A program made the position numbers and the translations under genes. From the NCBI RefSeq assembly GCF_003387475.1, contig NZ_QUNO01000009.1, positions 248,001 to 312,000 on the forward strand: a stretch of DNA of 64,000 nucleotides, given 5' to 3'. Source of the stretch: Kutzneria buriramensis (GTDB taxonomy: Bacteria; Actinomycetota; Actinomycetes; Mycobacteriales; Pseudonocardiaceae). Positions 7,723 through 52,427 of the stretch are shown piece after piece; within the stretch, counting starts at the first letter, position 1, and the number at the start of each line of letters is the position of its first letter. The notes below the pieces were generated by a model. It was not told where the DNA came from. It searched no databases and worked only from the letters and a program-made list of their open reading frames with translations.

Positions 7723-10554
7723 TCAGTCCTCGACAAGCCCCAGTCGCGCGGCGAGGTCGTCGATGAGCTCCGCCGGCAGGAGATCGGTACGGATGCCGAT
7801 GCGGAGTTCATGATTGGGGACGACCTCGATGAGCAGGGGGCAGGCCATCTCCAGCGCGCCAACGTCGTCGATGGGCTCGGTGGCGCAGCCGGTGAGGCGC
7901 AGCGGGGTGCGGTCGTCGTCCTGGACGAGTAGGACCGGCAGGGTGCCGAGCACGGGGGCCAGGCCCGGAGTGGTCATGGCGACCTCGGTGAAGGCTAGGT
8001 CCTGGGCGGCGAGGGCGTCGGCGACGGTCCGGGCCTCGGATCCCGGCTGGAGGCGCAGGCAGAGGGGGTTGGCGCGGTAGGTGATGGCGGCGTCGAGCAC
8101 GGGGTTGCCGCGGACGGAGACGGGGGCGAGTAGGGCGACGTCCTTGACGAACGACCGCAGGGCGTCAGCGACGGCGGCGACCAGCTCGGGGAAGGTGCCG
8201 GCGGCGAGGGGAGGAAAGCTGTGGAGCAGGGCGGGGCCGACGGAATGACCGGCGGGGATGTCGAGGCACGCGGGGAGGTCGGAGAGCTGGGAACGCCAGT
8301 AGCGGCGCTGGGCGGCGAGGTCGGTGGCGCCGAGGTGGCTGCGATGCGCGGCGGAGACCTCGGCGAGAGTGGGCGCGGGAACGGTCCATACGGGAGCGAC
8401 GCCGCGAACCCGTGACGCGTACGCGGTGGCGAGGTCGTTGAGCAGCAACGAGCGGGAGTGGCCGTCGTAAGCGATGTGGTGCACGGCGATGCCGAAGGCG
8501 GTGCGAGATCCGTCGGAAACGGTCAAAGCACGCCAGACGCGGCCGGCGGCCAGCGACAGGGGCTCGTGCAGGTGCTTGGTGAGGCTGAGGACGGCGGCCT
8601 CGGCGTCGGGGGTAGCGGGCAGGGTGGCGAACTCGACGCAGCCGGGATCGCCGACGGTCACGGACGTGCGCTGGTAGCGGGCATGCAGGGTCTGATGCCG
8701 AAGGTGCACGTCGTTCAGCGCCGTCTCCAGGGCCTCGACATCGAGCGGACCGTCAACCCACCAGGTGAGCATGAGAATGTCGTTGCTGTCGACGTACGTG
8801 GCCTGGCCGGCGGTGAGCGGGAAGCGGTTGGAACGCGAGACGACGACGGGCCGGCGAGCGGCGGAGTCGATCCACGCGGCGAGGTCGGCGACGCGAGGGG
8901 TGCGGTAGAGCTGCGAGAGCGGCAAGGTGACGCCGGTGGCGGTGACCAGGCGCGTACAGATCCGCGCCAGCTCGAGGGAATTGGCGCCGAGCAGGGCGAG
9001 CGAGGTGTCGGCGGAGATGTCCGGGATGCCCAGGACTTGGGCGCAGGTGGAGGCGACCAGGGACCGAGTGTTGTCGGTGACGATCTCCACGGCGATCCGC
9101 GACGGGCCGCCGGCGAGCGCCTTGCGGTCGACCTTGCCGTTGCGGGTCAAGGGAATCGCGTCGAGGCGCTCGATCTGGCGCGGTATCAGGTAAGCGGGGA
9201 GGCGCGAGGCCAGCGAGGACCTCAACGCCGACGGGGACACCTCGACAGCGACAAAGCTGAGCCGGAGATCGGTGTAAGCGCCGTCGGGTCCCTTGATCGG
9301 CACGACGACGGCCTGCCGGATCCCGGGCACCTGCTCGGCGACACGCTCGATCTCGCCAGGCTCGATCCGGTGCCCACGCACCTTGACCTGCAGGTCGTTG
9401 CGCGCCACGTAGTGCAGCACGCCGTCGGCGGTGACGTAGCCGAGATCGCCGGTGCGGTACACCAGCTGCGGGCCGCCGGCCGTCTCCAAGGTGACGAACT
9501 GGCGGGCGGTCAGCTCGGGATCGTCGAGGTAGCCGAGGGCGAGGCCGTCGCCGGACAGGCACAGTTCACCGACCTGGCCCGGCGCACACGGCCGCGTGCC
9601 ATCGAAGACGTGCACGTCGCTGTCGGTCACCGGCACACCGATCGGGACATCAGCCCTGGTGTCCTCAATGGACACCCGGCGGTAGGAGACGATGCCGGCC
9701 GATTCCACGGGGCCGTAGGCGTTGGTCAGGGTCATCGTCGGAAAGCGCTCCAGCAGGCGCCGGCAGTGCGCGTCGGAAGCCTTCTCCCCCACGATGAACG
9801 CGTACCGAATGCCCTCGAACGCGTCCACCCCCTCGTCCACCAACAGGTTGAACACGGCGGTCGGCAGGCACAGCGTGTTCAACCCGTGCGCGGAGACCAG
9901 ATCTCGCACCAGGGACGGCAGCAGCACGTCGTCGACGAAGACCGAGGTTCCGCCGGACAGCAAGGCGCTCCACAGGTCCAGCAGCGAGCCGTCCCAGTGG
10001 GTCGGCATGGTCTGGGTCTGCACCGCGCCCGGGCCGAAGTCGCCGAACGCGCAGTCGTCGTACAACCGCACGGTGCCGCGATGCGCCACCACAACGCCCT
10101 TCGGCTCGCCGGTGGAGCCGGACGTGAAGAAGATGTGCGCCGGGTCGTCCCTGGACACGGCGACCGGCGGCACCGAGCGGCCCGAAGAAGCGCCAGGCGT
10201 CCAGGACGGAACGTCCCAACCGTCCAAAGGAGACACGACGAGACGCGCGTGCAGCCGTCGAACCAGGGACGCCGAGCGCTCGCGCGGCCAGCGCGGATCG
10301 ATGCCGGCGTACACCGCGCCCCGCATCATGATCGCCAGTAGTGCGGCGACCATCTCGGGATCACGTTTCATCACAACGGCGACGTGTTCGCCGGGCCCGA
10401 CACCGCGCGCGGCTAGCTCCGCGGCGTAGTCCTCGGACAGCGCGGCCAGCTCACGGTAGGTGAGCCGGCGGTCGCCGTGCACGATGGCGGTGGCGTCGGG
10501 CCACCGCCGCGCGCAGTCGGCGAACAGGCCATGCACGGTGTCGGCGCGTCTCAT
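7723..10554 (-). CDS. stand-alone NRPS, adenylation-PCP-condensation
   Basis: A 943-residue protein with a complete adenylation domain (A3 FFTSGSTGEPKG near 145, NAYGPVE near 280, NGKVDRKAL near 472), a PCP with phosphopantetheine Ser in LGANSLEL (~523), and a C-terminal condensation domain with an intact HHIAYDG motif (~695). The by-eye ten-residue specificity code is DGLCIGAGIK, which I cannot assign to a substrate. There is no thioesterase and no N-terminal condensation domain, so it should activate one acid, hold it on its own carrier, and transfer it to a soluble acceptor or another carrier. It is the last gene of a seven-gene operon with exporter, aminotransferase, glycosyltransferase and P450 genes, 9 bp after the permease. 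A GAGGTG site precedes the ATG. Acylation of a sugar amine or hydroxyl is my inference. Confidence 0.9.
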   Translation of the reverse strand: MRRADTVHGLFADCARRWPDATAIVHGDRRLTYRELAALSEDYAAELAARGVGPGEHVAVVMKRDPEMVAALLAIMMRGAVYAGIDPRWPRERSASLVRRLHARLVVSPLDGWDVPSWTPGASSGRSVPPVAVSRDDPAHIFFTSGSTGEPKGVVVAHRGTVRLYDDCAFGDFGPGAVQTQTMPTHWDGSLLDLWSALLSGGTSVFVDDVLLPSLVRDLVSAHGLNTLCLPTAVFNLLVDEGVDAFEGIRYAFIVGEKASDAHCRRLLERFPTMTLTNAYGPVESAGIVSYRRVSIEDTRADVPIGVPVTDSDVHVFDGTRPCAPGQVGELCLSGDGLALGYLDDPELTARQFVTLETAGGPQLVYRTGDLGYVTADGVLHYVARNDLQVKVRGHRIEPGEIERVAEQVPGIRQAVVVPIKGPDGAYTDLRLSFVAVEVSPSALRSSLASRLPAYLIPRQIERLDAIPLTRNGKVDRKALAGGPSRIAVEIVTDNTRSLVASTCAQVLGIPDISADTSLALLGANSLELARICTRLVTATGVTLPLSQLYRTPRVADLAAWIDSAARRPVVVSRSNRFPLTAGQATYVDSNDILMLTWWVDGPLDVEALETALNDVHLRHQTLHARYQRTSVTVGDPGCVEFATLPATPDAEAAVLSLTKHLHEPLSLAAGRVWRALTVSDGSRTAFGIAVHHIAYDGHSRSLLLNDLATAYASRVRGVAPVWTVPAPTLAEVSAAHRSHLGATDLAAQRRYWRSQLSDLPACLDIPAGHSVGPALLHSFPPLAAGTFPELVAAVADALRSFVKDVALLAPVSVRGNPVLDAAITYRANPLCLRLQPGSEARTVADALAAQDLAFTEVAMTTPGLAPVLGTLPVLLVQDDDRTPLRLTGCATEPIDDVGALEMACPLLIEVVPNHELRIGIRTDLLPAELIDDLAARLGLVED

Positions 10555-10563: not shown

Positions 10564-11337
10564 TCACTGCGATCGTAAGTACGAACGGAAAGCCCGGGTC
10601 GCCACCCAGAGGGCGAAACCCAGCAACACCGACAACATCCCGAGATACAGGCCGATCTGACCCCAGTCCGGCGAGGCCCCCAGGGCCTCCCGGGCGGCCT
10701 CTACCGACCAGTTCAGCGGATTCACCTTCGACACGGCCTGGATCCAGCCCGGGGCGAGGTTCAGCTGCATGTACGCGGAGGAGGTGAAGGTCAACGGCAG
10801 CACCAGGAACTGCACGGCGACCACCAGTACATTGATCTTCCGCACGATCACCGCCAGCGCATTGGACAACGCCCCGATCAGGCAGCTCAGCAGCGCCACC
10901 GACACCAGCATCACCAGATACCCCGGCACGCCGCCGGCGAAGGACACGCCCTTCACCCACGCCAGGCAGAGGATCAGGATGCTCTGTGCCAGCACGACAA
11001 CCGCCTGCTGCGCCAGCGGTCCGAGCAGGATCGCCAACCGCTGCATGGGCGAGGCCAGCAGCCGGTCCAGCAGCCCGTTGTCGATGTCGATGATCGTGTA
11101 CATGCCGTTCCAGCCGCCGGCGTAGAGCCCGGTCATGGCCAGCACGCCGGGCGTCAGGAACGCCAGGTACATGCCGCCGGTGAAGCCCGGGATCCGGCTG
11201 ACCGCGCTGAACAGCGAGCCGAAGATCAGCAGCCACACGATCGGCTGCACCAGCGAGATGATCGTGGTCCACGGCGAGCGGACCACGCCCCGGATGTGCC
11301 TGGCCGAGCTGAGCCAGACCGCACTGGCCAGAGTCAC
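10564..11337 (-). CDS. ABC-2 type exporter permease (DrrB-like)
   Basis: A 257-residue permease with about six hydrophobic segments and the ABC-2 layout of daunorubicin-type exporters. It overlaps the ATPase gene by 4 bp (ATGA), so the two form one transporter, presumably exporting the cluster product and giving self-resistance. Codon 254 is TTA (10576-10578), a second bldA-type codon within the cluster. Confidence 0.9.
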   Translation of the reverse strand: MTLASAVWLSSARHIRGVVRSPWTTIISLVQPIVWLLIFGSLFSAVSRIPGFTGGMYLAFLTPGVLAMTGLYAGGWNGMYTIIDIDNGLLDRLLASPMQRLAILLGPLAQQAVVVLAQSILILCLAWVKGVSFAGGVPGYLVMLVSVALLSCLIGALSNALAVIVRKINVLVVAVQFLVLPLTFTSSAYMQLNLAPGWIQAVSKVNPLNWSVEAAREALGASPDWGQIGLYLGMLSVLLGFALWVATRAFRSYLRSQ

Positions 11338-12335
11338 GAGGCCTCTCCTTCCGCGTTGCCGCGCCGGAAGGCGCGTCCGGTGTGCCGCAGGTACACGTCG
11401 TCCAGCGACGGACGGTTGACGGTCGCCGACACGACGCCGTCTACAGTGGACAGCAGCCGAGGCAGGGCCCGGGCGCCGTCGGCGGTTCGCAGGTGCACCA
11501 CCGCGTCCTCGGCCTGCACGTCCCAGACGTCCTCGTCGGCCAGCTGGGCAGCCGCTCGAACGGCCGCCTCCGCGCTGTCGAGTCCGATGTGGACGGCGTC
11601 GCCGCGCAGCTCGCCCTTGAGCTCGGCCGGCGTGCCGCTGGCCACCACCCGGCCGCGGTCGACGATCGCCAGCTGGTTCGCCAGCAGGTCGGCCTCCTCC
11701 AGGTAGTGCGTGGTGAGCAGCACCGTAAGGCCGTCCTCACGGGTCAGCGTGCGGATCTCGTCCCACAGGCCGATCCGCGCCTCCGGGTCCAGCCCGGTCG
11801 TCGGCTCGTCCAGGAACAGCACCCGCGGCCGGTGCACCAGCCCCATCGCCAGGTCCAGCCGGCGGCGCTGGCCGCCGGAGTAGTTGTACGGCGTGAGCTT
11901 CGCCTTCTCCCCCAGCCCGAACCGCTCCACCTGCTCGTCGACCCGGGTACGCAGCTCGCGGCCGCGCAGCCCGTGGATACGGGCCATCATCGCCAGGTTC
12001 TCGATGCCGGTGGCCATCTGGTCCACGGCGGTGCGCTGGGCCACCACGCCGATCGCCCGCCGCACCTCGCTCGCCTCGGCCAGCACGTCGAAGCCGGCCA
12101 CCCGAGCGGTTCCCGAATCCGGAATGGACAGTGTGGTGAGGATCTTGACGGTGGTGGACTTGCCGGCGCCGTTCGGGCCGAGCAGGCCGAACACCTTGCC
12201 CGGCTCGGCGGCGAAGCTCAGGCCGTCCAGCGCCCGCACGTCCCTGCCGTACGTCTTGACCAGCCCGGCCACCTCGATGGCGGGCCGCGCGGCGGCGGTG
12301 TCCCGCACCGCAACCGCCGCTTCTGCTTGCGTCAC
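11334..12335 (-). CDS. ABC exporter ATP-binding protein (DrrA-like)
   Basis: A 333-residue ATPase. Walker A is GPNGAGKSTTVK, the signature is YSGGQRRRLDLAM, and Walker B is RVLFLDEPTTGLDP. The C-terminal ~90-residue extension is typical of DrrA-type ATPases. The start is the GTG at 12335, which overlaps the aminotransferase stop by 4 bp (GTGA); longer frames upstream lack support. It pairs with the permease immediately downstream for drug efflux. Confidence 0.92.
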   Translation of the reverse strand: MTQAEAAVAVRDTAAARPAIEVAGLVKTYGRDVRALDGLSFAAEPGKVFGLLGPNGAGKSTTVKILTTLSIPDSGTARVAGFDVLAEASEVRRAIGVVAQRTAVDQMATGIENLAMMARIHGLRGRELRTRVDEQVERFGLGEKAKLTPYNYSGGQRRRLDLAMGLVHRPRVLFLDEPTTGLDPEARIGLWDEIRTLTREDGLTVLLTTHYLEEADLLANQLAIVDRGRVVASGTPAELKGELRGDAVHIGLDSAEAAVRAAAQLADEDVWDVQAEDAVVHLRTADGARALPRLLSTVDGVVSATVNRPSLDDVYLRHTGRAFRRGNAEGEAS

Positions 12336-13543
12336 AACGCCTCCACTCCAGCTCTCACCTGATCCGACATGGACGCGGCGACCTCGGCCGCATGGCTGAC
12401 GACGAACCGGACCACCTGGCACAGCACGGCGATGTCCCGCGGCGTCGTCGCGGTTCCGCTCGGCAGCACGACCAGGCGTTCGGCGAGCTCCTCGGTGCCC
12501 GGCATCGGGGCGTGCACGCGGTCGCGGTATGCCGCGGTCCGGTGGCAGCCCGGCGTGAAATACCGGCGCCCCATGATGTTCTCCGCGCGCAACGCATCCG
12601 TCAGCACGTCCCGGCTCACGCCGGCGATCGCGACGTCCACGTCCAGCACGACGTACTGGTAGTTGTTGCGCTCGCGGTGGTCGAAGTCCAGCACCCGAAG
12701 CCCGGGAACGCCGGCCAGCTCCGCCTGGTACGCCTCATGGTTCTCACGGTTGCGGGCCACGAACGCCGGCATCGCGGCCAGCGACGCCAGCCCCATCGCG
12801 GCGGCGACCTCGCTCATCTTCGCGTTGGTGCCGGGCTCGGCCACCTCCGACTCGGAGACGATGCCGAAGTTCGACAGCGAGCGGGCCCGCTCGGCGAGCG
12901 AGTCGTCGTTGGTGACGAGCGCCCCTCCCTCGAACGAGTTGACGACCTTGGTGGCATGGAAGGAGAACACCTCCGCGTCGCCGAAGCCGCCGATCATCCG
13001 GCCGCCGGCGCTGCACCCGAAGGCGTGCGCCGAGTCGTAGAGCAGCTTCAGGCCGTGGGCTGCGGCGAACTCGGCGAGGCGGTCCACATTGCACGGCCGG
13101 CCCCACAGGTGCACCGCCATGATGCCACTGGCCCGCCGGGTCAACACGCTGCCCAACCGGTCGACGTCGATGTTGCCGGACGGGTCCACATCACAGAACA
13201 CCGGCGTCAATCCCAGCCAGTGCACGGAATGCGGCGTGGCCGGGAAGGTGAACGACGGCACGATCACCTCGCCGGTCAGCCCGGCGGCGCGGATCGCCAG
13301 CTGGAGCGCGGCGGTCGCGTTGCAGGTGGCGACGCAGTGCTCCACCTCGACCAGCTCGGCGACCTGGCGCTCGAACTCGCGGGCCACCGGGCCCCGGTTG
13401 CTCAGGTAGCGGCGGTCGAGAATGTCGTTGACGGACTTGAGGAAACGCTTGCGGTCGCCGATGTTCGGCACGCCGATGTGCACGGGCGCCGGGAACGCCG
13501 GTCTGCCGCCGAACAGCGCGAGATCGTCCAGACGGAGCTTCAC
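12332..13543 (-). CDS. DegT/DnrJ/EryC1 sugar aminotransferase (SpnR/DesI-like)
   Basis: A 403-residue PLP enzyme. The internal aldimine Lys is in FSFHATKVVNSFEGG near residue 197, a sequence form typical of 4-aminotransferases such as DesI and SpnR. It would convert an NDP-4-keto-deoxyhexose to the 4-amino sugar using glutamate or glutamine as donor. It is translationally coupled on both sides (ATGA with the glycosyltransferase, GTGA with the ABC ATPase). Together with the 2,3-dehydratase, 3-ketoreductase and 3-dehydratase elsewhere in the cluster it completes a forosamine-type set. A C3 amination role is a less likely alternative. Confidence 0.88.
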   Translation of the reverse strand: MKLRLDDLALFGGRPAFPAPVHIGVPNIGDRKRFLKSVNDILDRRYLSNRGPVAREFERQVAELVEVEHCVATCNATAALQLAIRAAGLTGEVIVPSFTFPATPHSVHWLGLTPVFCDVDPSGNIDVDRLGSVLTRRASGIMAVHLWGRPCNVDRLAEFAAAHGLKLLYDSAHAFGCSAGGRMIGGFGDAEVFSFHATKVVNSFEGGALVTNDDSLAERARSLSNFGIVSESEVAEPGTNAKMSEVAAAMGLASLAAMPAFVARNRENHEAYQAELAGVPGLRVLDFDHRERNNYQYVVLDVDVAIAGVSRDVLTDALRAENIMGRRYFTPGCHRTAAYRDRVHAPMPGTEELAERLVVLPSGTATTPRDIAVLCQVVRFVVSHAAEVAASMSDQVRAGVEAL

Positions 13544-14643
13544 GCGACCCCCTCAAGCATGCCGACCACGGCGGCCGGTTCCGGCTGCGCCAGCAACTCG
13601 TCCCGCATCCAGGCCGCCGCCTCGCGGTACTTCGGCTCCGTGAGGAGATCCGCCAGTGCGGTCTTCAGCTCCTCCGACGACGGTTCGGCGACGTCGAGGT
13701 TGATGCCGACGCCGGTGTCGTGGATCCGGCCGGCGGTGCGGTACTGCTCCCCCATCTGCGGCAACATCAGCTGCGGCACGCCGGCGCGGGCGGCAGTCAG
13801 CGTCCCACCGAGCCCGCCTTGGCTGATGAACAGGTCGGAACGCGGCACGACCTCGCTCAGCGGCAGCCACGCCGCGACGATCGACCCTTCGGGCAGCCTG
13901 GGCTTGGCCGCCAGCTGCCCGACGGCGACCACGAGTTCGACGTCGAACTCCCCCACCACGGCGGCGACCGATTCCAGCACCTGCTTGGCGCGCGGGTTGT
14001 GGATCGACCCCAGCGTCAGCACGACCCGCTTGCGGCTCAACGGCTCGTAACACCAGCGCGGGGCCGGCCGGGACCCGGTGAACGGGACGTAAGCGACGGG
14101 CGTCGTCGGGGTGGCGTCGAGCAGCTGAAGGCTCGGCGGCACCGGGTCCAGCTCCATCAGCGGCGGCGCCGGCGAGATGTGAAAGCGCTCATACAACGGC
14201 CTGAGCTGCTCAGATGCCACCTCGGCGACAGCCGAGGGCAGGTGTAGCACGCATCGCACGGACACCGCCGGCACGCCGGTGAGCGCGGCGACGAAGGGCC
14301 CGGTGTAGTCCAGGCTCTCGTGCAGCACCAGGTCCGGACGCCAGTCCCGGGCCAGCGCGGCCAGGTCGTCGGCGGCATGGGCCGCCGCCAGCGACCAGCC
14401 GCGACCGGCGGCGAGGACCAGCTTCTCCTCACGGCCGGCGTCCGGCGCGGGCTGCGGCCACTCCCCCGGCAGCAGTTCCCGCCCGACGGCGACGCCGGCC
14501 AGCCCGGTCTCCTTCACCACCGAGCAGAACGTCGGCGCGACCGCGACCAGCACCTCGTGGCCGGCGGCGCGCAGCGCCCAGCCGTAGGGCACGAGCTGGT
14601 AGAAGTGCCCGTGCGCGGCGTTGGAGGTGATCAGTACCCGCAC
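13540..14643 (-). CDS. GT1-family glycosyltransferase with altered donor motif
   Basis: A 367-residue GT-B enzyme of the EryCIII/UrdGT2 type. The N-terminal acceptor side has NAAHGHFYQLVPYGWALRAAG with a retained His. The usual donor-binding HHGGxG is replaced by SQGGLGG (near residue 270), unlike the other four GT1 enzymes here. The GTG start at 14643 is chosen for its AAGGGGG site. It overlaps the aminotransferase gene by 4 bp, so its donor is plausibly the amino sugar. Loss of both His residues could mean altered donor recognition or low intrinsic activity. Confidence 0.85.
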   Translation of the reverse strand: MRVLITSNAAHGHFYQLVPYGWALRAAGHEVLVAVAPTFCSVVKETGLAGVAVGRELLPGEWPQPAPDAGREEKLVLAAGRGWSLAAAHAADDLAALARDWRPDLVLHESLDYTGPFVAALTGVPAVSVRCVLHLPSAVAEVASEQLRPLYERFHISPAPPLMELDPVPPSLQLLDATPTTPVAYVPFTGSRPAPRWCYEPLSRKRVVLTLGSIHNPRAKQVLESVAAVVGEFDVELVVAVGQLAAKPRLPEGSIVAAWLPLSEVVPRSDLFISQGGLGGTLTAARAGVPQLMLPQMGEQYRTAGRIHDTGVGINLDVAEPSSEELKTALADLLTEPKYREAAAWMRDELLAQPEPAAVVGMLEGVA

Positions 14644-14656: not shown

Positions 14657-15814
14657 TCATGTCCACCGCACCGGAACGCGGGCCGGGCCACGGAAGCCGG
14701 GCGCGGACCGCCACGGCACGTCGTGCTCGGCGAGTTCCAGGCGGGGGAACCGCGCCAGCACCATCGGCAGCGCCACGCGCGCCTCCAGCCGGGCCAGGCC
14801 GGCGCCGAGGCAGAAGTGCGCGCCGAAGCCGAAACCCAGGTGCGGATTGGGATCCCTGGTGATGTCGAAGGTGTCCGGGTCCTCGAACACCGCCGGGTCG
14901 CGGTTGGCCGCGCCGATCAGGAGGTTCACCAGCCGGCCCTCGCGCAGCACGCGACCGCCGATCGTGACGTCCACGCGCGGCACGCGGCCCACGTTCTGCA
15001 GCGGGCTCTCGTACCGGAACACCTCTTCCACCGCGCCGTCGATCAGACTCGGATCGGCGCGGAGCGCGGCGAGCTGCGAGGGATGCCGCAGCAGCGTGAG
15101 GATCCCGCTGGCCAACAGGTCGGTGGACGTCTCGTGGCCGGCGGTGACCATGAAGAGCACGTTCGCCGCCAGCTCGTCGAAGCTCAGCGTCTCGTCGCCC
15201 ATCTCCAGCAGCGAGCTGATCAGGTCGTCCCGCGGCTCGCGCCGACGGTCCGAACACAGCTGGGAGACCAGGTCCCGCATGTCCGCCATCTGCTGTTCCC
15301 ACACCACGGCCGTCGCCGGCTCGATCGTGCCGGCCGACATGATCCGCACCAGTGTGTCGGACCAGGCCAGGAGCTTGTCCACATGGGACCACTCGATGCC
15401 GAGCAGGTTCGAGATCACTCTGGCCGGCAAGGGGTACGCGAGTTCGCGAACGACATCGCCCTCGCCGCCGACCTCGTCGAGCAGCTCGGCGGTGAACCGC
15501 TCGATGGTGTCCCGCTGGCCGTCGATCTGCTTGCCCACCAGTCGCTTCGCCAGCACGCGGCGCAGCCGCCGATGCCCGTCGCCCTCCTGGAACGCCAGGA
15601 TCGACCGCAGCGTCCGGGCGAGCGCGCCGTCTGCCAGCTCGGCCGGCAGCACGCGGCGCAGGTCGTTCAGCTTGTCCACCACCAGGTCCGGGTGGTTGAG
15701 GGCCTCCCGGACCTCGGCGTGCGACACCAGGTTCGGGCCCGGATTCGGGAGCTTGCGCAGCTGGGCGTACAGCGGATACGGATTGGCCGCCAGCTGCGTG
15801 AGGACGCCGGTCAT
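14657..15814 (-). CDS. cytochrome P450
   Basis: A 385-residue P450 with canonical motifs: I-helix VTAGHETSTDLL with the acid-alcohol pair, K-helix VEEVFRYESP (ExxR), and heme loop GFGFGAHFCLGAGLARLEA with the axial Cys. It probably hydroxylates or oxidatively tailors the aglycone or a sugar. The ATG at 15814 overlaps the GT2 stop (ATGA). It is in the operon with the amino-sugar and exporter genes. The heme Cys is present, so this is not a DesVIII-type glycosyltransferase activator. Confidence 0.92.
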   Translation of the reverse strand: MTGVLTQLAANPYPLYAQLRKLPNPGPNLVSHAEVREALNHPDLVVDKLNDLRRVLPAELADGALARTLRSILAFQEGDGHRRLRRVLAKRLVGKQIDGQRDTIERFTAELLDEVGGEGDVVRELAYPLPARVISNLLGIEWSHVDKLLAWSDTLVRIMSAGTIEPATAVVWEQQMADMRDLVSQLCSDRRREPRDDLISSLLEMGDETLSFDELAANVLFMVTAGHETSTDLLASGILTLLRHPSQLAALRADPSLIDGAVEEVFRYESPLQNVGRVPRVDVTIGGRVLREGRLVNLLIGAANRDPAVFEDPDTFDITRDPNPHLGFGFGAHFCLGAGLARLEARVALPMVLARFPRLELAEHDVPWRSAPGFRGPARVPVRWT

Positions 15815-43689: not shown

Positions 43690-43707
43690 CCGGTCGACGA
43701 TCGGTCG
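43690..43707 (+). promoter_or_regulatory. degenerate direct repeat, CCGGTCG-N4-TCGGTCG
   Basis: Heptamers at 43690 and 43701 (11-bp period) in the spacer between the divergent 2,3-dehydratase and SDR genes. They share the GGTCG core but not the CTGG of the other boxes, so this is a weaker candidate site. Confidence 0.35.
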
Positions 43708-43786
43708 AAACGGGACGGGCGAGCGCGCTGCGACCGGCCGACCACCGGCGCCGGAGATCCTGCGTGCACCGGAGAAGGAGGACACC

Positions 43787-44578
43787 GTGAAGGCGACTTA
43801 CCGTTCGGCCCTGGTCACCGGCGCGTCCGGCGGCATCGGCGAGATCTTCGCCCGCCAGCTGGCGGCGGTCGGCTGTGACCTGGTGCTGGTGGCCCGCCGG
43901 GCCGAGCCGATGGAGAAGCTGGCCGCCGGCCTGGCGGAGCGGCACGGCGTGCACGTCGAGGTGATCGCCGCCGACCTGACCGTGGACGGCGATCTCGAAC
44001 GGGTGGCGCGGCGGCTGGCCGATCCGGAGCGGCCGATCGAGCTGCTGGTGAACAACGCCGGCGCGGGATCCCGGCCGCCGCGGCCGTTCCACCAGCAGGA
44101 TCCGGCCGGCGAGGAGGTCAAGGTGGCGCTGAACGTGATCGCGCCGCTGCGGCTGACCCGCGCCGCGCTGCCCGGCATGGTCGCGCGTGATCACGGTGGC
44201 GTGCTCACGGTGTCGTCGATCGCCGCGTACTGGCCGCAGCCCCACGGCGCGACTTATGCCGCCACCAAGGCGTTTCTGAGCTCCTTCGGCGACACACTGG
44301 CGTGTGAGCTGGCCGGCACGAACGTGCACGTCACGACCGTGGTGCCGGGATTCACCAAGCGCGGCAACGGGGTCGCGAAGGGCGGCCCGAAGAGCTTCAC
44401 GCTGCCGGAGTTCGCCTGGCTGGAGCGGGAAGACGTGGCCGCGCAAGGGCTTGCCGCGGTGCACGCGGGCGTGCCGATCTGCATTCCGGGCGCCACCTAT
44501 CAGGCGGCGCTCGGCCTCACGCGTCTGCTCCCACGGTCAGTGCTGCGCGACCTTTTCCGCCGCGTCTGGGGCAGCTGA
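43787..44578 (+). CDS. short-chain dehydrogenase
   Basis: A 263-residue SDR (VTGASGGIGEIFARQLA, NNAGAGS, SSIAAYWPQPHGATYAATKAF). The C-terminal region is longer than in FabG-like enzymes and resembles DltE-type SDRs. GAAGGAGG precedes the GTG. The 3' end overlaps the convergent amidohydrolase gene by 42 bp. Reduction of a sugar ketone or an aglycone carbonyl is possible. Confidence 0.82.
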   Translation: MKATYRSALVTGASGGIGEIFARQLAAVGCDLVLVARRAEPMEKLAAGLAERHGVHVEVIAADLTVDGDLERVARRLADPERPIELLVNNAGAGSRPPRPFHQQDPAGEEVKVALNVIAPLRLTRAALPGMVARDHGGVLTVSSIAAYWPQPHGATYAATKAFLSSFGDTLACELAGTNVHVTTVVPGFTKRGNGVAKGGPKSFTLPEFAWLEREDVAAQGLAAVHAGVPICIPGATYQAALGLTRLLPRSVLRDLFRRVWGS

Positions 44579-46621
44579 CCGGCTCGCCTGCTGCTGGTCG
44601 AACCGCTTGCGGGCAACGGCTTCCCAGATCCCCAGGTCGCCGAACACCCGCGAGCCGTCGGCCAGCACGGGCAGGCCGGCCCAGCTGGCCTTGTCCCGGT
44701 CCCGGTAGTACGGCAGCAGCACGCCGTCGGCGGTCCGCGCCACCAGCTCCAGGTTCCCGAAGGTGCTGGCGATCATCGCGACGGACACCGGCCGCCCCCG
44801 GCCACCGGGCAGCAACCCCGCCTGTCGCCACTCCCCCGCCTCGCGGTGGTAGTGCACGAGCCGGCCGTCGTACGGCACGACCAGGTCGTCCCCGACCAGA
44901 GTGGGGTCTCCGTCCGCCGAGCCGATCAGCGTCAACGATCCGTCCAGCCTACCGAATGCCAGTTCACCGGCGTTCGTCCGGACGGCTAACTCGTCACCCG
45001 AGAGCGCGACACCGGCGGCGGAGATCGGCAGCTCGGCGGCCTTGCGCCAACCGACGGCGAGCCGGCGGTAGTGCGCCAGCGCTTCCCCGCACGGCACCAG
45101 CATGTTCGAACCGTGCACGGCGGGATCGCCGGTGGCATCACCGATCGTCACGGCGTCGCCGGCGCCCAGCCGGTACGTCAGCAACAGCCCGTCGGCCGAC
45201 CGCGCCACCACCTCTACCGCGCCAGGGATCACCGCCACCGCCCCGCCGACCGCCTCGAACGGCAGCGCGCCAACACGACGCCATGGATATCCCCACTGGT
45301 CGTTGAGACGCTCGTAGTGGACCAATGCCGGCCCATCCGGCGCGACCAGAACGAAGTCGCCACGGACCGTCTCGGCTAGAAATCCGCTGCCACGCCCGGC
45401 CGCGAAAGCGGTGCCGACAACCTCTATCGACTCCACCGACGGCCGCCGGCGCTCGATCCGCTCGCCGCCCTTCCACACGCCGACGAGATCGACCAAACAG
45501 GACACATCGGCGGTCGGGTCACCGTCCACCAGCATGAGATCCGCCCGCAGCCCCGCGGCGATGCGCCCACGGTCGACCAGGCCGAAGGCATCCGCCGGCA
45601 CGGAGGTCGCGGCGGCCAACGCCTCGACGCCAGAGAGCCCCGCCTGGACGAGGAGTTCCAGCTCGCGCCACAACGCCACGCCATGCAGGTACATCGTCGG
45701 ATCGGACCCGGCCAGCAGTGGAACGCCCGCCTCCCGGAACGCCCGCACCGCCGCCGCGGCCGCCTCGGTGTCGACCGGCAGGCAGCCGGCGTGCCCGTCG
45801 TACTCGGCGACGGCGAGATCCTCGGGCCGCAGGTACGGGGCGATCCGCGAGTCGGCGGCCAGGCCGCTCCGCCAGGCCGAACCGCCGGAGATCAGCTCGA
45901 ACACGTTCAGCGTCGGCACCACGAACGTGCCCAGCTCCTTGGCCCGCAACGCAATCGACGCATCCGGCACCCGGTCCACGAACACGTGTGCCAGCCCGTC
46001 GACCCCGGCGTCCAAGGCGTCGTGCGCGGCCTGCAGGGTGCCGATGTGCACCATCGTCTTCAGCCCGCGCCGATGCGACTCCGCCACGATCGCCGCCATC
46101 GTCTCCTTGCTGACGAAGGGAAGCGTGTGCCCCGCCGCCGCGCTGAGCAGGTCGCCGTCGTCGTAGCGGATCTTGATGTAGTCGGAGCCGTCGGCGATCC
46201 GCGCCGCCACGAAGCGTTCCGCGTCCTCCGGCCCCGTGACGAACGGAACCGCCGCCCCCGCCGCCGTCGTGCCCCGGCTGCCCGGCGCCTTCGCGGACAC
46301 GCCCGCCGACCGGATGTCCGCGATCGGCTCGCCGGACGACCGCAGCCGCGCGACCTCCGCCGGATCGTCGCCCATGCTGAGCACGGTCGTGGTGCCGAAG
46401 GTGATCGCCTGCCGCAGCGAATCCTCGCCCAGCAGGTGGAAGTGGGCGTCGATCAGACCGGGCAGCAGCGTCATCCGGCCCTCGCCGTCGACGATCTCGG
46501 CCCCGGCCGGCTCGTCCGACCCGATGGTCGTGATCACCCCGTCGGTCACGACGACCGAGCACACCGGCAGGCGCCGCTCCCCGTCGAACACCCGGACCCG
46601 GCGGAAGACAACGGAAGGCAT
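44537..46621 (-). CDS. amidohydrolase fused to a lectin-like propeller region
   Basis: A 694-residue protein. Residues ~1-390 are a metal-dependent amidohydrolase of the imidazolonepropionase/prolidase type (LLPGLIDAHFHLLG HxH motif, TMVHIGTL, GLAHVFVD, LLAGSDPTMY). Residues ~400-680 form a second domain with four repeats around L-x-HY-x-R followed by a Trp (ALVHYERLNDQWGY, ALAHYRRLAVGW, RLVHYHREAGEW, VLLPYYRDRDKASW), resembling sugar-binding propellers of the PLL type. There is no signal peptide. The ATG at 46621 has AAGGAG upstream. The combination suggests a hydrolase aimed at a glycosylated amide, inferred only. Confidence 0.8.
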   Translation of the reverse strand: MPSVVFRRVRVFDGERRLPVCSVVVTDGVITTIGSDEPAGAEIVDGEGRMTLLPGLIDAHFHLLGEDSLRQAITFGTTTVLSMGDDPAEVARLRSSGEPIADIRSAGVSAKAPGSRGTTAAGAAVPFVTGPEDAERFVAARIADGSDYIKIRYDDGDLLSAAAGHTLPFVSKETMAAIVAESHRRGLKTMVHIGTLQAAHDALDAGVDGLAHVFVDRVPDASIALRAKELGTFVVPTLNVFELISGGSAWRSGLAADSRIAPYLRPEDLAVAEYDGHAGCLPVDTEAAAAAVRAFREAGVPLLAGSDPTMYLHGVALWRELELLVQAGLSGVEALAAATSVPADAFGLVDRGRIAAGLRADLMLVDGDPTADVSCLVDLVGVWKGGERIERRRPSVESIEVVGTAFAAGRGSGFLAETVRGDFVLVAPDGPALVHYERLNDQWGYPWRRVGALPFEAVGGAVAVIPGAVEVVARSADGLLLTYRLGAGDAVTIGDATGDPAVHGSNMLVPCGEALAHYRRLAVGWRKAAELPISAAGVALSGDELAVRTNAGELAFGRLDGSLTLIGSADGDPTLVGDDLVVPYDGRLVHYHREAGEWRQAGLLPGGRGRPVSVAMIASTFGNLELVARTADGVLLPYYRDRDKASWAGLPVLADGSRVFGDLGIWEAVARKRFDQQQASRSAAPDAAEKVAQH

Positions 46622-46630: not shown

Positions 46631-47818
46631 TTAGAAGCTCACCGGCAGGCTGGTGAGGTTGCGGATCACCGATCCGGTCGTGGTCAACGACGACTCGGGC
46701 ACCGCCAGCCGCAGCACGCCGAACCGCGCGAACAGCGCTCCCAGGGCGATCTCCAGCTCGGCCCGGGCGAGCTGGGCGCCGATGCAGTAGTGCGCGCCGG
46801 CCCCGAACGCCAGGTTCGGCTCCGTCCGAGCGGGCCGGAACTCGTCGGGGTCGGTGAACACACCCGGATCCCGGTTCGCGCCGACCGTCGACGGCAGCAC
46901 GGCCTCGCCGGCGCGGATCAGCACCCCGCCGAGCTCCACGTCCTCAGTCACCACCCGCAGATTGCCGCCGGTCACCGGCGCCGCCGAGAACCGCAGCACC
47001 TCCTGCGCGGTCTCGCGGATCAGCTCCGGCCGCGCCACCAACTCGGCCATCCGGTCCGGGTTTCGCAGCAACGTCAGCACGCCGCTGGTGATCGCGCTGG
47101 CCGTGGTGTGGTAGCCGGCGATCAACAGGGTCGCGCCGAACACCACCAGCTCCTCGTCGCTCAGCGCCCCGTCGATGTCCCGGGCGTTGACCAGGTCGGT
47201 GAGCAGGTCGTCGGTGGTGGCCCCGTGCTTGTGCGCCACCAGCCCGGCCAGATAGCGGTTCAGCGAGCTCCGGGCGTCCCGAATGGACTCCGGCGAGTGC
47301 CCGGACAGGCTCAGCATCACGTCCGTCCACCGCCCGAAGCGGGCCCGGTCCTCGAACGGCACGCCCAGCAGCTCGCAGATCACCGCGATCGGCAGCGGCA
47401 GCGCCAGCGCCGACACGATGTCCACGGGGGACTCGGCGACCTGATCGAGCAGATCGTCGGTCACGCGCTGGATGTACGGCCGCAGCGAGGCGACGCGGCG
47501 CGCGGTGAAGGCGCGGATCACCAGGCGGTGCAAGCGGGTGTGCTGCGGCGGGTCCATCGCCAGGATCGTCGAGCGGTCCGGCGGCAGCGGCCGCATGCGC
47601 GGCGCGCCCTCCCGGCACGCGGCCGCCCGGCTGAACCTGTTGTCCGTCAACACGGTCCGCACCTCGTCGTGCCCGATGACCAGCCACGCCTCGTCGCCGG
47701 TGGGCAGCCGCACGCGGCACACCGGCCGCCGGTCGGGCGTGCCCGCCATCAGGTCCGGCACGCCCAGCACGCGGTCGGTCGGCACCGGGAAGTCCACCAC
47801 CACATCGGTCTCGGCCAT
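46631..47818 (-). CDS. cytochrome P450 with His in the I-helix motif
   Basis: A 395-residue P450 with heme loop [19 protein letters not shown] and ExxR in QEVLRFSA. The I-helix is [13 protein letters not shown], where His takes the place of the usual Glu/Asp before the Thr pair. It is 9 bp upstream of the amidohydrolase gene on the same strand, so the two are probably co-transcribed. A tailoring oxidation is likely. Confidence 0.92.
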
Positions 47819-47940: not shown

Positions 47941-49278
47941 ATGGCGCAGCAGGCCAGAGAGCTGCTCATCGAGCAAGTGCGGGACTATCACCGGCGGCGC
48001 GCCGGCGACACCGGCTTCGAGCCGGGCGTGACGTGGATCAAGTCCACCGGGGCCGTGCTCGACGACGACGACGTCGCCGCGCTCGTGGGCGCCGCGATGG
48101 ACCTGCGGATCGCGGCGGGCCCGAGCGCGCGCACGTTCGAGTCGAGATTCGCGAAGCTGCTGGGCGCGCGCAAGGCGCACCTGTGCAACTCGGGGTCGTC
48201 GGCCAACCTGCTGGCGCTCAGCGCCCTGACCGCGCCGGCGGTGGGCCGCCGGCGGCTCCAGCCGGGCGACGAGGTGATCACGGTGGCGACCGGGTTCCCC
48301 ACCACGGTCAACCCCATCCTGCAGAACGGCCTGGTGCCGGTGTTCGTGGACGTGCAGCTGGGCACCTACAACGTGCAGCCGGAACTGCTCGAGGGAGCGC
48401 TCTCCAACCGCACGAAGGCCGTGGTGCTGGCGCACGCGCTGGGCAACCCGTTCGACGTCGCCGCGGTGAAGGCGTTCTGCGACGAGCACGGGCTCTGGCT
48501 GATCGAGGACAACTGCGACGCCGTCGGCAGCACGTACGACGGCCAGGTCACGGGCACCTTCGGCGACCTGTCCACGGTCAGCTTCTACCCGGCCCACCAC
48601 CTCACCATGGGCGAGGGCGGCTGCGTGGTGACCAACAGCCTGCTGCTGGCCCGGCTGGTGGAGACGTTCCGGGACTGGGGCCGGGACTGCTGGTGCGAGC
48701 CGGGCGAGGACGACAAGTGCCTCAAGCGGTTCGACTGGCAGCTGGGCGGCCTGCCGCACGGCTACGACCACAAGTACACGTTCTCCGAGGTCGGCTACAA
48801 CCTGAAGACCACCGACCTCCAGGCGTCGCTGGGCCTGAGCCAGCTGGACAAGCTGCCGGCGTTCGGCGCGGCCCGGCGGCGCAACTGGGACCGACTGCGG
48901 AGAGCGCTATCCGACGTGGACGGCATCCTGTTGCCCGAGGCCACGCCCCGCAGCGACCCGAGCTGGTTCGGTTTCGCCATCACGGTGCTGCCCGACGCCG
49001 GTTTCACCCGCGACGAGTTCACCGCGCACCTGGAATCGCGGCGGATCGGCACCCGGCTGTTGTTCGCCGGCAACCTCACCCGCCAGCCCGCCTACCGGGG
49101 CAAGAACTGGCGGGTCGCCGGCGCGCTGGCCAACAGCGACATCGTCACCGAGCGGACCTGCTGGATCGGCGTGTTCCCGGGCATCACCGACGAGATGATC
49201 GACTACATGGCGGCGACCATCCGGGAGTTCGCCGCCGACCGGCAGCGGATCGGCGCCGGCGTGCCCGTGGCCACATGA
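47941..49278 (+). CDS. NDP-4-keto-6-deoxyhexose 3-dehydratase (E1/SpnQ-like, iron-sulfur PMP enzyme)
   Basis: A 445-residue DegT-fold enzyme in which the PLP Lys is replaced by His ([11 protein letters not shown], His219/220). Cys192, 250, 252 and 260 fit the C-x57-C-x-C-x7-C [2Fe-2S] motif of E1. It removes the C3 hydroxyl of the sugar by a PMP-dependent radical route and needs an electron donor, which is not encoded in the window. GGAGGCGAGGATCC precedes the ATG. With the 2,3-dehydratase it leads to 2,3,6-trideoxy sugars. Confidence 0.93.
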
Positions 49279-49662: not shown

Positions 49663-50634
49663 ATGCGCAGGTTCGCGCCCGCGGTCGTGCTGTCCGTGCT
49701 CGCCCCGGTGATCGCCGAGTACGTCTCCGGCGACATCGCGCTGGACGCTTTCCCGGCGCTGCTGGGATTCGTCTGCCTGAACGGATGTTGGGCCGTGCTG
49801 GCCCGGGAACTGGTGGTGCGCCGCGGCGGCGGTTGGCCGGGGCTGGTGTTCCTGGCGCTGGCGATCGGCGTGGTCGAGGAGGGGCTGCTCGACCAGTCCC
49901 TGTTCAACCCGCACTTCGCGGGGTCACCGCAGTGGCTCGCCTACGGTTTCGTGCCGGCGCTGGGCACGTCGCCGATCGTGGTGGTGTTCATGGTGGTGCT
50001 GGACGCCGTGTGGAGCGTGCTGGTTCCCGTGGCGTTGACGGAAACCCTGTTCCCGCACCGTCGGGCGAAGCCCTGGCTGGGCCGCACGGGCCTGCTGCTG
50101 GTCGGCATCGCGTTCCTGCTCGGCGCCGCGGCGACATGGATGATCAACTACCGGATCGCCGGCTTCCGGGCGTCGCCGGGACAGCTGGAAGCCGCCGTCG
50201 TCACCGCGATCGTGTTGGTGGCGCTGGGTGCGCGGCCGTCACCGGAGCCACTGCCGTCGGAACGGTTGGCCCCCAGTGCCTTCACGGTCGGCGTTACGGC
50301 TTTCCTCGCCTCGAGCGCGTTCCAGGTGCTGAAGCTGATCACGGATCCGCCGGCCTGGATCGTCCTACTGGGAATGCTGGCGCTGCTGGCCGGTTCGCTG
50401 GTGTTGTTCTCGCGATGGGCTCGCCGCCCGGGTTGGGGTGAGCGGCACCGGTTCGCGCTGCCGGCCGGCGCGGTGGTGACGTACTGCTGGTTCGGGCCGA
50501 TGTTGATGCTGTACAAGGGAAACATGGGCCACGTGGCCGAGCAGCTGGTGCTGGTCGCCGTGACCCTGCTGACCATGGGGGCGCTGGCCAGCAGGGTTCG
50601 GCACGGGTGTCAGCTCAGCGACACCAGGCCCTGA
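49663..50634 (+). CDS. polytopic membrane protein of unknown function
   Basis: A 323-residue protein with about eight or nine hydrophobic segments. An acidic EEG pair in a membrane context (GVVEEGLLDQSLFNPHF) is the only conspicuous polar motif and vaguely recalls CPBP-type membrane proteases, but the full motif is absent. GGAAGGAAG precedes the ATG. It is convergent with the SARP gene, overlapping by 25 bp. Confidence 0.7.
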   Translation: MRRFAPAVVLSVLAPVIAEYVSGDIALDAFPALLGFVCLNGCWAVLARELVVRRGGGWPGLVFLALAIGVVEEGLLDQSLFNPHFAGSPQWLAYGFVPALGTSPIVVVFMVVLDAVWSVLVPVALTETLFPHRRAKPWLGRTGLLLVGIAFLLGAAATWMINYRIAGFRASPGQLEAAVVTAIVLVALGARPSPEPLPSERLAPSAFTVGVTAFLASSAFQVLKLITDPPAWIVLLGMLALLAGSLVLFSRWARRPGWGERHRFALPAGAVVTYCWFGPMLMLYKGNMGHVAEQLVLVAVTLLTMGALASRVRHGCQLSDTRP

Positions 50635-52427
50635 TCGGCCGTCTGTGCCTCGTAGCACTCGCGGGCGAAGGACCGCACCAGCTCGTGCTGCACGTAGACG
50701 GGATCCTCGTGATCGCCGTCGAGACGACGCAGCAGGCTCTGACCGACCAGCTCCCGCATCGCCATCTCGACCTCCCAGTCCGCGCAGGTGAGCAGCTGGC
50801 AGGCGTGGCTGGTGGCGAAGCGGGCGGGCAGCAGACCCAGCGACCGGAACGTGCTGCGGCCGACCTCGGTGAGCCGGTCGTAGTGGCTGGCCAGCCGCTG
50901 CCGGATCTCGTCCGCCTGAAGGACTTCGAGCAGGCGGCCGGCCTGCTCGGCCCGGTCGGCGAGGGTGGTGACGGCGTGCGGACCGGACATCGCCAACCGC
51001 GAGCCCACGCAGCGAATCGCCAGCGGCAACCGTCCACACAGCATCGCCAGGCGTTCCGGCGCGCGGTCGCCGGGCGTCCGGTCCAGGCCCATGGTGCGGC
51101 ACAGGAGCTTGACCGCGTCCTCCATCGGCAGCGGCGCGAGGTCGATCTGGACGGTGCCGCCCAGGCCGGTCAGGCGGCCCCGGCTGGTGATGACGACGGC
51201 GCTGCGGGAGTTGGCCGGCAGCAGGGGCATCACCTGCGCCGCCGACGCGGCATCGTCCAACAGCACCAGCACCGGGTTGGCGGCACTCCACGACCGGAAC
51301 AGCTTCGCGCGTTCCTCCACCGAGGCCGGCACCCGGTCCATCGGGAAGCCGGTGGCGTGCAGGAACTCGCCGAGCACCTCGCCCGGCTCGCGCGGCGTCG
51401 CCGTGCTGCCGCGCAGGTTGGCGACGAGCTGCCCGCCGGGGAAGTGGTCGGCGGCGCGGTGCGCGGCCTCCACCGCGAGCTCGGTCTTGCCGACGCCGGC
51501 CATGCCGGCGATCCGCACCATGCGGACGGCGCTGCGGCGATCGCCCGCCTCGGTGAGCAGACGCTCCATGAGGGACAGTTCCGGGCCGCGGCCGGTGAAC
51601 TCGAAGATCGTCGGCGGCAGCTGGGCGGGGCTGCACAGCGGCGCGGTCCGCGCCGGCGCCTGGGGACGGCGGTCGAGCGCCGGATCCGAGTTGATCATCG
51701 CCCGTTGCAGCTGGCGCAGCGCCGGCGAGGGCTCCAGGCCCAGCTCGTCGATCATGTTCTCGCGCAGCCGGCGGTACACCTCCAGCGCCTCGAAGCAGCG
51801 GCCCGACCGGTAGAGGGCGAGCATCAGGCTGGAGTGGAATCCCTCGTGGAACAGGTGGATCGCGGTCAGCTCGCGCAGCTTGCTGACCAGTTCCGCGTGC
51901 CGGCCCAGCTTCAGGTCCGCCTCGACGCGCAGCTGCACGGCCCGCAGCCGCTGCTCCTCCAGCAGGTGCGCGTAGGCCGTCAGCGCCTCGCCGAGTTCGA
52001 CGTCGGCCAGCGTCGGGCCCCGCCACAGGTCCAGCGCCTCACTGAGCACATCGGACGCCTGCTGCGGGTCGGTGTCCATAATGTCCTCGGCGCGGCGCAG
52101 CAGCCGCTCGAACACGTGCAGATCGATGGCGTCCGCCGGAATGTTCACCTGGTAGCCACCCGGCTTGGTGAGCAGGTAGCCGCCCGCGCCGTCGCAGTCC
52201 CGGAACGGGCCGAGCTTGCGCAGCTTGTAGATGTAGGTCTGGAGCGTGGCCGCGGCGCTGACCGGCGGATTGCCGCGCCACAGCTCATCGATGAACTCGT
52301 TGGTGCGGACCAGGCGGTTGGCGTGCAGCACCAGCAGTGCCAGCACCTCGCGTAGTTTCGGCGCGGACGGCGTGAGGTCGACGGCGCCGTCGGTGACCTC
52401 GATCGGGCCTAACACACGGAAGAACAC
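50610..52427 (-). CDS. SARP-family pathway regulator (AfsR-like, with NB-ARC domain)
   Basis: A 605-residue regulator: N-terminal OmpR-like winged helix (residues ~1-95, VLGPIEVTDG, TLQTYIYKLRKLG), bacterial transcriptional activation domain (~100-245), then an NB-ARC ATPase (P-loop GMAGVGKTE near 310, LVLLDDAAS near 386). The GTG at 52427 is chosen because it starts directly at the winged helix. Codon 6 is TTA (52410-52412), implying control by the bldA leucyl-tRNA. It is the likely activator of the cluster, binding the 11-bp-period repeats. Confidence 0.92.
   Translation of the reverse strand: MFFRVLGPIEVTDGAVDLTPSAPKLREVLALLVLHANRLVRTNEFIDELWRGNPPVSAAATLQTYIYKLRKLGPFRDCDGAGGYLLTKPGGYQVNIPADAIDLHVFERLLRRAEDIMDTDPQQASDVLSEALDLWRGPTLADVELGEALTAYAHLLEEQRLRAVQLRVEADLKLGRHAELVSKLRELTAIHLFHEGFHSSLMLALYRSGRCFEALEVYRRLRENMIDELGLEPSPALRQLQRAMINSDPALDRRPQAPARTAPLCSPAQLPPTIFEFTGRGPELSLMERLLTEAGDRRSAVRMVRIAGMAGVGKTELAVEAAHRAADHFPGGQLVANLRGSTATPREPGEVLGEFLHATGFPMDRVPASVEERAKLFRSWSAANPVLVLLDDAASAAQVMPLLPANSRSAVVITSRGRLTGLGGTVQIDLAPLPMEDAVKLLCRTMGLDRTPGDRAPERLAMLCGRLPLAIRCVGSRLAMSGPHAVTTLADRAEQAGRLLEVLQADEIRQRLASHYDRLTEVGRSTFRSLGLLPARFATSHACQLLTCADWEVEMAMRELVGQSLLRRLDGDHEDPVYVQHELVRSFARECYEAQTADQGLVSLS

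Follow-up and report, generated by a model that had tools for sequence, protein, structure and literature searches.

Two stand-alone A-PCP-C proteins in a predicted pentangular type II polyketide gene cluster and their possible role in glycoside tailoring

What might two free-standing nonribosomal peptide synthetase (NRPS) proteins do in a gene cluster for a glycosylated aromatic polyketide? The question is raised by a locus of Kutzneria buriramensis (G000:C9:248001-312000, from a genome of 11.97 Mb in 65 contigs), a stretch of 64,000 nucleotides called the window hereafter, to whose numbering all coordinates given without a contig refer. It harbors genes for a type II polyketide synthase (PKS), for glycosyltransferases and deoxysugar enzymes, and for two proteins, named here APC1 and APC2, each composed of an adenylation (A), a peptidyl carrier protein (PCP) and a condensation (C) domain. 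The pairing of a type II PKS cluster with A-PCP-C proteins is the unusual element, the core itself being of a known kind. The genes of the window were identified by gene calling and open-frame analysis, followed by Pfam and NCBIfam profile scans; the Pfam scan covered 50 protein references, several small called genes and short open reading frames (ORFs) lying outside it. The cluster extends from 7723 (the end of APC1) to 52427 (the start of a SARP regulator), and all the gene classes that the original prediction had listed for this span were recovered by gene calls, Pfam and NCBIfam.

APC1 (7723-10554, minus strand) has 943 residues and APC2 (22046-25045, plus strand) has 999, the start of the latter being placed upstream, which keeps its A domain whole. 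In both proteins four Pfam models exceed the gathering score (AMP-binding, Condensation, PP-binding and AMP-binding_C, with 234.3, 50.7, 44.9 and 30 bits in APC1 and 180.5, 125.7, 44.6 and 31.6 bits in APC2), and the core motifs are all present, i.e., TSGS, NGKVD, the PCP serine (GANS in APC1, GATS in APC2) and HHxxxDG (HHIAYDG and HHVGFDG, respectively). Each is thus a stand-alone protein with the A, PCP and C domains in one chain and no following module, and the claim of two complete A-PCP-C proteins in coupled operons could be verified from domain scores and intact motifs. The two share 33-34% identity over about 720 residues and are therefore not the outcome of a recent duplication.

The arrangement of the genes, many of which overlap their neighbours by 1-4 bp, links both proteins to the sugar branch of the cluster. 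APC1 comes at the end of a seven-gene run (a GT2 glycosyltransferase, the cytochrome P450a, the glycosyltransferase GT1a, a sugar aminotransferase, the ATPase and the permease of an ABC exporter, and APC1), whose successive gaps are -4, 13, -4, 23, -4 and 9 bp; its distance from the gene for the chain length factor (CLF) is 17 kb. APC2, with the ABM/ketoreductase genes on one side and the PKS operon on the other, shares 4 bp with a sugar epimerase gene. We assign the A-PCP-C enzymes to the sugar branch mainly because APC1 closes the sugar run and APC2 overlaps the epimerase; by this gene context the pair likely represents tailoring enzymes of the glycoside, and we consider it probable that both act in this pathway.

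The PKS genes, identified by Pfam and motifs, lie on the minus strand and encode KS-alpha (29088-30344), with its active-site Cys in TGCTSG, the CLF (27865-29088; SEQAGG) and an acyl carrier protein (27569-27868; GYDSL). Three cyclases assigned by Pfam flank them on the same strand, a TcmN-like aromatase/cyclase (27114-27566), a TcmJ-like cupin cyclase (30341-30763) and a TcmI-like cyclase (30760-31062). Two ABM oxygenases (PF03992; 20555-20854 and 20851-21165, both minus) are adjacent and co-directional, overlap by 4 bp and are PdmH/PdmI-like by family and arrangement; beside them stands SDR1 (21168-21911, minus), a ketoreductase of the pentangular kind, which corresponds to the FkmD/PdmG/BenL type by family and position only. 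As described in PMC4383371, the pentangular signature comprises TcmN-, TcmJ- and TcmI-type cyclases, a second adjacent ABM and a ketoreductase, the last two distinguishing pentangular from tetracenomycin clusters. All these elements are present in the window. The prediction of a "tetracenomycin or pentangular" pathway can thus be narrowed: because of the paired co-directional ABM genes and the ketoreductase, the pentangular option stands and the tetracenomycin one (a single ABM homologue, no tailoring ketoreductase) is discarded. Judging from its genes, the cluster is almost certainly of the type II polyketide, pentangular class. By analogy with this class, a chain length of about C24 or longer may be expected; the sole type II CLF among the PDB chains listed at E <= 1e-50 is that of actinorhodin.

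To place the core among its relatives, 390 genomes of the family were searched with the CLF (E <= 1e-130, four candidates scored per genome); matches occurred in 146 of them (own included), the best non-own identity being 67-68%. We fetched 27 of the 30 best-ranked non-own loci with up to 20 kb on each side (those on G377, G339 and G011 were omitted) and the next 40 in rank with up to 10 kb on each side, so that 67 loci in total were compared. A tblastn homologue of each of six pentangular marker genes was retrieved in 22 of the 27 and in 7 of the 40, counts that may include cross-matches between paralogues. Within the 27 related loci, homologues were found for TcmN in 25 (50-66% identity), TcmJ in 22, TcmI in 23, SDR1 in 25 (44-57% identity), the DUF1772 protein in 23 and a HIBADH-like dehydrogenase in 15, while SDR2 had one in all 27, although SDRs cross-match. 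Core-gene identities are mostly 40-75%, and the gene order is rearranged in the eight loci examined. By gene content, the core, DUF1772 and SchA/CurD proteins included, is an ordinary one for the family. A spore pigment, as the SchA/CurD protein might suggest, is disfavoured, as 20 of the 27 related loci have a homologue of this protein and at least 15 of these 20 bear all six pentangular marks. In the plasmid collection the CLF identity did not exceed 62.5% among the 20 of 97 records listed. The same genome contains a second type II PKS locus (G000:C21:111956-113143), whose CLF is 57% identical to that of the window.

The A-PCP-C proteins have a different distribution, as judged from APC1 genome searches (those of the family and phylum with two candidates scored per genome at strict thresholds) and from tblastn checks of the type II PKS loci with both APC1 and APC2. 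None of the 67 further type II PKS loci compared in the family showed an A-PCP-C protein within the 10-20 kb on each side; the 10-kb view could miss a gene as distant as APC1 but not one placed like APC2. An A-domain homologue (E <= 1e-8) was present in 2 of the 27 and 7 of the 40 loci, and a C-domain homologue (E <= 1e-4) in 2 of the 27 and none of the 40. One locus of the same genus (G001b) gave a C-domain match of 56-69 bits, its NRPS genes lying about 17 kb from the CLF with other genes between; the match in G104, of 40 bits, is marginal.

The search from the opposite side led to the same picture. No APC1 orthologue was detected in the genus (7 genomes, own included), where the best other match is 36% identical over residues 8-777 and those listed do not exceed 40%. 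In the family, matches at E <= 1e-100 occur in 56 of the 390 genomes (own included), the best others having 45% identity (G076 and G067). Fourteen of the 20 loci fetched around APC1 relatives contain a protein of 837-1044 residues that is A-PCP-C-like by its alignment to APC1 (over 727-1021 residues) only, and the remaining six have A-PCP-sized proteins of 570-589 residues. A type II KS/CLF pair is missing from all 20 fetched stretches, which span 13-20 kb; the KS-alpha matches there, of 25-32%, fall in proteins of 473-2572 residues resembling modular PKSs. Only one genome besides our own in a phylum sample of 396 reaches 1e-120 (G517, 42%), with the gene beside NRPS-like and PKS-like genes, and the named genome contigs returned only three distant NRPS matches of 25-28% identity. 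Hence, the presumed rarity of the pairing held in the stretches searched: of the loci compared, only the window showed an A-PCP-C protein within a type II PKS cluster. In G076 and G067 (L131 and L132), the nearest APC1 relatives, the A-PCP-C-like gene is a lone one, followed in both by a gene for a 495-residue protein with a similar N-terminus, and no PKS match was obtained in the stretch fetched.

A third stand-alone A-PCP-C protein, of 993 residues, is encoded in the same genome about 68 kb past the window end (match C9:380732-382999; L104:14072-17053). It is the closest APC2 relative in the loci compared (38% over about 1012 residues); its gene overlaps that of a FAD monooxygenase, an ABC transporter is nearby, and the surrounding 40 kb contain no type II PKS gene.

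Concerning the sugars, the six glycosyltransferases of the original prediction were all found, five of them GT1 and one GT2: GT1a (13540-14643, minus; EryCIII-like N and C domains), GT1b (17100-18242, plus), GT1c (19354-20541, minus), GT1d (37462-38625, plus), GT1e (38666-39874, plus; Pfam and NCBIfam) and the GT2 member (15811-16710, minus; Glycos_transf_2, 57.7 bits). GT1d was recognised as an open frame, and its assignment rests on a TIGR04516 match of 260.3 bits, below the cut-off of 440, and on 45% identity to GT1b. The deoxysugar enzymes comprise an NDP-hexose 2,3-dehydratase (42234-43637, minus; PF03559, 489 bits in two stretches), a sugar 3-ketoreductase (41299-42240, minus; 281.6 bits with 3rbv), an E1/RfbH-type 3-dehydrase (47941-49278, plus; NF011936 with 665.8 bits against a cut-off of 423, and 503.4 bits with 3bcx), a dTDP-4-keto-sugar epimerase of the RmlC/NovW/PCZA361.16 type (25042-25662, plus; Pfam and similarity) and a DesI-like sugar 4-aminotransferase (12332-13543, minus). 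The 3-dehydrase has a His (SFYPAHH) at the catalytic-Lys position, where the DesI-like enzyme has its Lys (SFHATK), and we take this His to play the role that it has in E1/RfbH-type dehydrases. The aminotransferase scores 552.7 bits with the DesI equivalog TIGR04427, whose cut-off of 650 is not reached, and 443 bits with 2po3, a PDB entry named "4-dehydrase" that we take to be DesI, in agreement with TIGR04427. A TylE/MycE-like sugar O-methyltransferase (18278-19381, minus; MycE_N; 220.1 bits with 8ia9 and 218.5 bits with 3ssm) completes the set.

Such a set is presumably the one expected for a 4-amino-2,3,4,6-tetradeoxyhexose by the logic of SpnQ/SpnR. Neither a dTDP-glucose synthase nor a 4,6-dehydratase turned up among the window proteins scanned; RmlB (dTDP-glucose 4,6-dehydratase) is encoded on another contig (C1:820568-821527; 445.8 bits, cut-off 365.1), and none of the 16 RmlB matches listed falls on the contig of the window. 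Nor was a sugar 4-ketoreductase recognised among the cluster proteins scanned, and therefore the simplest fate of the 4-keto trideoxy sugar would be to serve as a substrate of the aminotransferase. SDR3 (43787-44578, plus) was considered for the 4-ketoreductase role and is unsupported, its resemblance being to a mycolate reductase (184.6 of 380 bits). The predicted amino-tetradeoxysugar route is thus backed by most of its genes (2,3-dehydratase, 3-ketoreductase, E1-type 3-dehydrase, aminotransferase and epimerase), and its amino sugar may be the tetradeoxy one.

From these elements the following pathway can be proposed. dTDP-4-keto-6-deoxyglucose, supplied by genes elsewhere in the genome, would be converted by 2- and 3-deoxygenation, epimerisation and C4 amination into a 4-amino-2,3,4,6-tetradeoxyhexose, which a glycosyltransferase would add to the sugar chain. 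APC1 and APC2 would each activate an alpha-amino acid and keep it bound to their own PCP, and the C-terminal C domain of each would pass the residue to an amine outside any following module. Because the A domain activates the amino acid at its carboxyl, an amine or a hydroxyl is required on the partner; the amino sugar would be the plainest amine acceptor, and we give it about an even chance of being the acceptor in fact. The two proteins may each act alone, or the C domain of APC1 may transfer its residue onto the aminoacyl group that the PCP of APC2 carries, the C domain of the latter then releasing a dipeptide onto the amino sugar. A dipeptide in place of two separate acylations is rather unlikely, and a split two-module line of APC1 and APC2, whose last C domain would off-load the dipeptide onto the amine of the 4-amino-2,3,4,6-tetradeoxyhexose to give a peptidyl-aminosugar pentangular glycoside, appears decidedly so. 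The product would be exported by a DrrA/B-like ABC pair, formed by an ABC-2 permease (10564-11337, minus) and a DrrA-like ATPase (11334-12308, minus; TIGR01188 drrA, 313.6 bits with a cut-off of 312.45), and the cluster would be regulated by a MerR-family protein (25659-26636, minus) and the SARP/AfsR-type regulator (50610-52427, minus; Pfam and NCBIfam). That the product is a glycosylated pentangular polyketide is very probable; the best explanation as a whole, i.e., such a polyketide with A-PCP-C aminoacylation of its amino sugar, could as readily prove wrong as right.

Several observations weigh against this explanation. The C domain of APC1 matches the Pfam profile in its N-terminal half only (35-212 of 456), the C-terminal half being divergent, though still aligned by relatives (45% over 5-934). 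The A-domain pocket residues of APC1 and APC2, located by core motifs and by PheA numbering (and checked for APC2 on an LgrA alignment), pointed to no confident amino acid, and an MbtH-like protein was not seen among the scanned proteins, the small called genes and short ORFs being outside that set. C domains can also form esters, that is, use alcohols. There is a single sugar aminotransferase, hence one evident amine for two A-PCP-C enzymes; moreover, it is nearest to DesI (TIGR04427 and 2po3), whose product is a 4-amino-4,6-dideoxy sugar and no tetradeoxy sugar. Finally, stand-alone A-PCP-C proteins lie away from type II PKS genes in the same genome and in others of the family, so they need no polyketide partner.

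These points give room to other explanations. The A-PCP-C enzymes might target the aglycone or hydroxyl groups, so that the amino acids end up as esters or amides of the polyketide core or of sugar hydroxyls and not on the amino sugar, as the use of alcohols by C domains would allow. The amino-acid ligase of pradimicin is of the asparagine-synthetase-like type, and no domain of this type is present among the 50 window references scanned by Pfam. Pentangular relatives do bear aglycone amino acids, D-alanine in pradimicins (PMC10951976) and serine in arixanthomycin (PMC9327801), but as far as these two sources describe them they are joined by a ligase or an amidotransferase, whereas in an A-PCP-C protein the carboxyl that is activated belongs to the amino acid itself; together with the gene run that APC1 shares with the sugar aminotransferase and glycosyltransferases, this makes an aglycone or hydroxyl acceptor fairly unlikely. 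We regard it as quite possible, though we lean away from it, that two sugars are made, a neutral 2,3,6-trideoxyhexose of the amicetose or rhodinose type, formed through the dehydratases, and a 4-amino-4,6-dideoxyhexose formed by the DesI-like enzyme, the latter sugar being acylated by A-PCP-C. The proximity of the aminotransferase to DesI (443 bits) would fit this, as would the five GT1 genes, which allow several sugars, the amicetose or oleandrose reported for kigamicins (PMC9327801) and the 4-amino-4,6-dideoxygalactose of pradimicin (PMC10951976); however, the DesI model score is under the equivalog cut-off (552.7 vs. 650), and the cluster lacks a recognised sugar 4-ketoreductase, though one may lie elsewhere.

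The remaining alternatives detach the A-PCP-C proteins from the sugars. One or both genes might belong to an unrelated pathway and stand beside the polyketide genes by chance, as the third A-PCP-C protein of the genome, with no type II PKS gene in the stretch fetched, and the 14 A-PCP-C-like relatives of APC1, with no type II KS/CLF pair in theirs, would suggest; yet the place of APC2 amid the ABM/ketoreductase genes on one side and the PKS operon on the other, its overlap with the epimerase gene and the position of APC1 at the end of a tight sugar run render such a coincidence very unlikely. Still less probable is the supply of an aminoacyl starter unit to the type II PKS. According to PMC4383371, non-acetate starters in this subclass are accompanied by a ketosynthase of type III or by a stand-alone adenylation domain, but it is hard to see what a terminal C domain would do in the priming of KS/CLF, the Pfam scan of window proteins turned up neither a separate ketosynthase III nor an acyltransferase, and the neighbours in the gene runs are sugar genes. 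The acylation of an amino sugar is our preferred explanation.

As regards the other genes of the span, assigned by Pfam, two encode DUF1772/Anthrone_oxy proteins (26671-27117, minus, and 32886-33338, plus), one the SchA/CurD protein (33358-34110, plus; two matched stretches), and two the HIBADH-like dehydrogenase (31142-32017, minus) and SDR2 (32017-32727, minus), both having homologues in the related loci. The three cytochromes P450, P450a (14657-15814, minus), P450b (34107-35288, plus) and P450c (46631-47818, minus), have the heme Cys motif, which excludes P450a as a heme-less glycosyltransferase activator. A SAM methyltransferase (35301-35918, plus) is followed by the single FAD monooxygenase (35905-37335, minus; FAD_binding_3, 309.6 bits), of the RdmE/DnrF family, whose nearest NCBIfam model is the RdmE hydroxylase (392 bits, cut-off 700); it may or may not have the Baeyer-Villiger role that XanO4/PnxO4-type enzymes have in polycyclic xanthones of the xantholipin/kigamicin type, XanO4 being the xanthone-forming monooxygenase (PMC9327801). 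The stretch 39871-46621 may belong to the cluster in part or in whole. It contains a small protein (39871-40329, minus) with a bulb-lectin (D-mannose-binding) match of 35.4 bits (cut-off 32.4), whose nearest NCBIfam model is the lectin-like bacteriocin putidacin L1 (100.7 of 275 bits); pradimicins bind mannose (PMC10951976), and a link between the two is speculation. Among the sugar genes there are also the mycolate-reductase-like SDR3 and a 694-residue amidohydrolase with a long C-terminal extension (44537-46621, minus). Outside the span, the scanned neighbours (LPG_synthase_TM, PIG-L, phosphodiesterase, cation-efflux and CMD families) appear unrelated to the cluster.

Antibacterial and cytotoxic compounds are known among the glycosylated pentangular polyphenols, whose sugars matter for activity, as reported for pradimicins (PMC10951976) and arixanthomycin (PMC9327801). 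If the proposal is right, aminoacylation of such glycosides by free-standing A-PCP-C proteins would offer a new handle for tailoring and a means, open to test, of varying the compounds, and the predicted product class is close enough for a targeted search.

Within the family, the clusters most similar in combining a pentangular core with NRPS domains are those of G166, G094 and G130, in which an A-PCP-like protein (L117:5932-7677, L168:2272-4032 and L170:15878-17638, respectively) adjoins a P450 and an SDR, a set that presumably recalls beta-hydroxy-amino-acid cassettes. A homologue of the sugar 3-ketoreductase occurs in G166 and G130; unlike in the window, no C domain was found, and the A-PCP architecture is Pfam-confirmed for G166 only, where Pfam further identifies genes for a DAP-epimerase-like protein and an amidohydrolase.

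Among characterised systems, none with the gene set of the window was found in the open-licence literature, as covered by titles and abstract openings. The amexanthomycins and kigamicins, glycosylated pentangular xanthones from Amycolatopsis, share with the window a type II PKS pentangular core and several deoxysugars (PMC8037709, PMC9327801), and core genes of their kind recur in the clusters of the window's family. The parts of these accounts considered mention no A-PCP-C protein, against two in the window, and the kigamicin sugars named there are neutral; a XanA-type amide synthetase was not recognised in the window. FD-594 (pnx cluster), a pentangular-derived type II PKS product with deoxysugars and glycosyltransferases (PMC9327801), and ruskamycin and a predicted glycosylated lysolipin-type cluster, both pentangular with sugar genes (PMC13200232), resemble the window in these respects; in contrast to it, the passages describing them name neither A-PCP-C proteins nor an amino sugar. 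In arixanthomycin, a glycosylated pentangular xanthone, the serine is carried on the terminal carboxyl and is thought to enter via the amidotransferase Arx5 (PMC9327801), to which nothing recognised in the window corresponds. Pradimicin/benanomicin has in common with the window the pentangular core (PMC4383371), a 4-amino sugar with a second sugar, and an attached amino acid, placed on the aglycone by the ligase (PMC10951976), whereas the two A-PCP-C proteins, the 2,3-dehydratase, the E1-type 3-dehydrase and the six glycosyltransferases set the window apart from it. The lincosamide synthetase of lincomycin and celesticetin differs from the window in its condensing system and in having no aromatic polyketide; there, NRPS elements help to join an amino acid to an amino sugar through an amide bond (PMC4351081).

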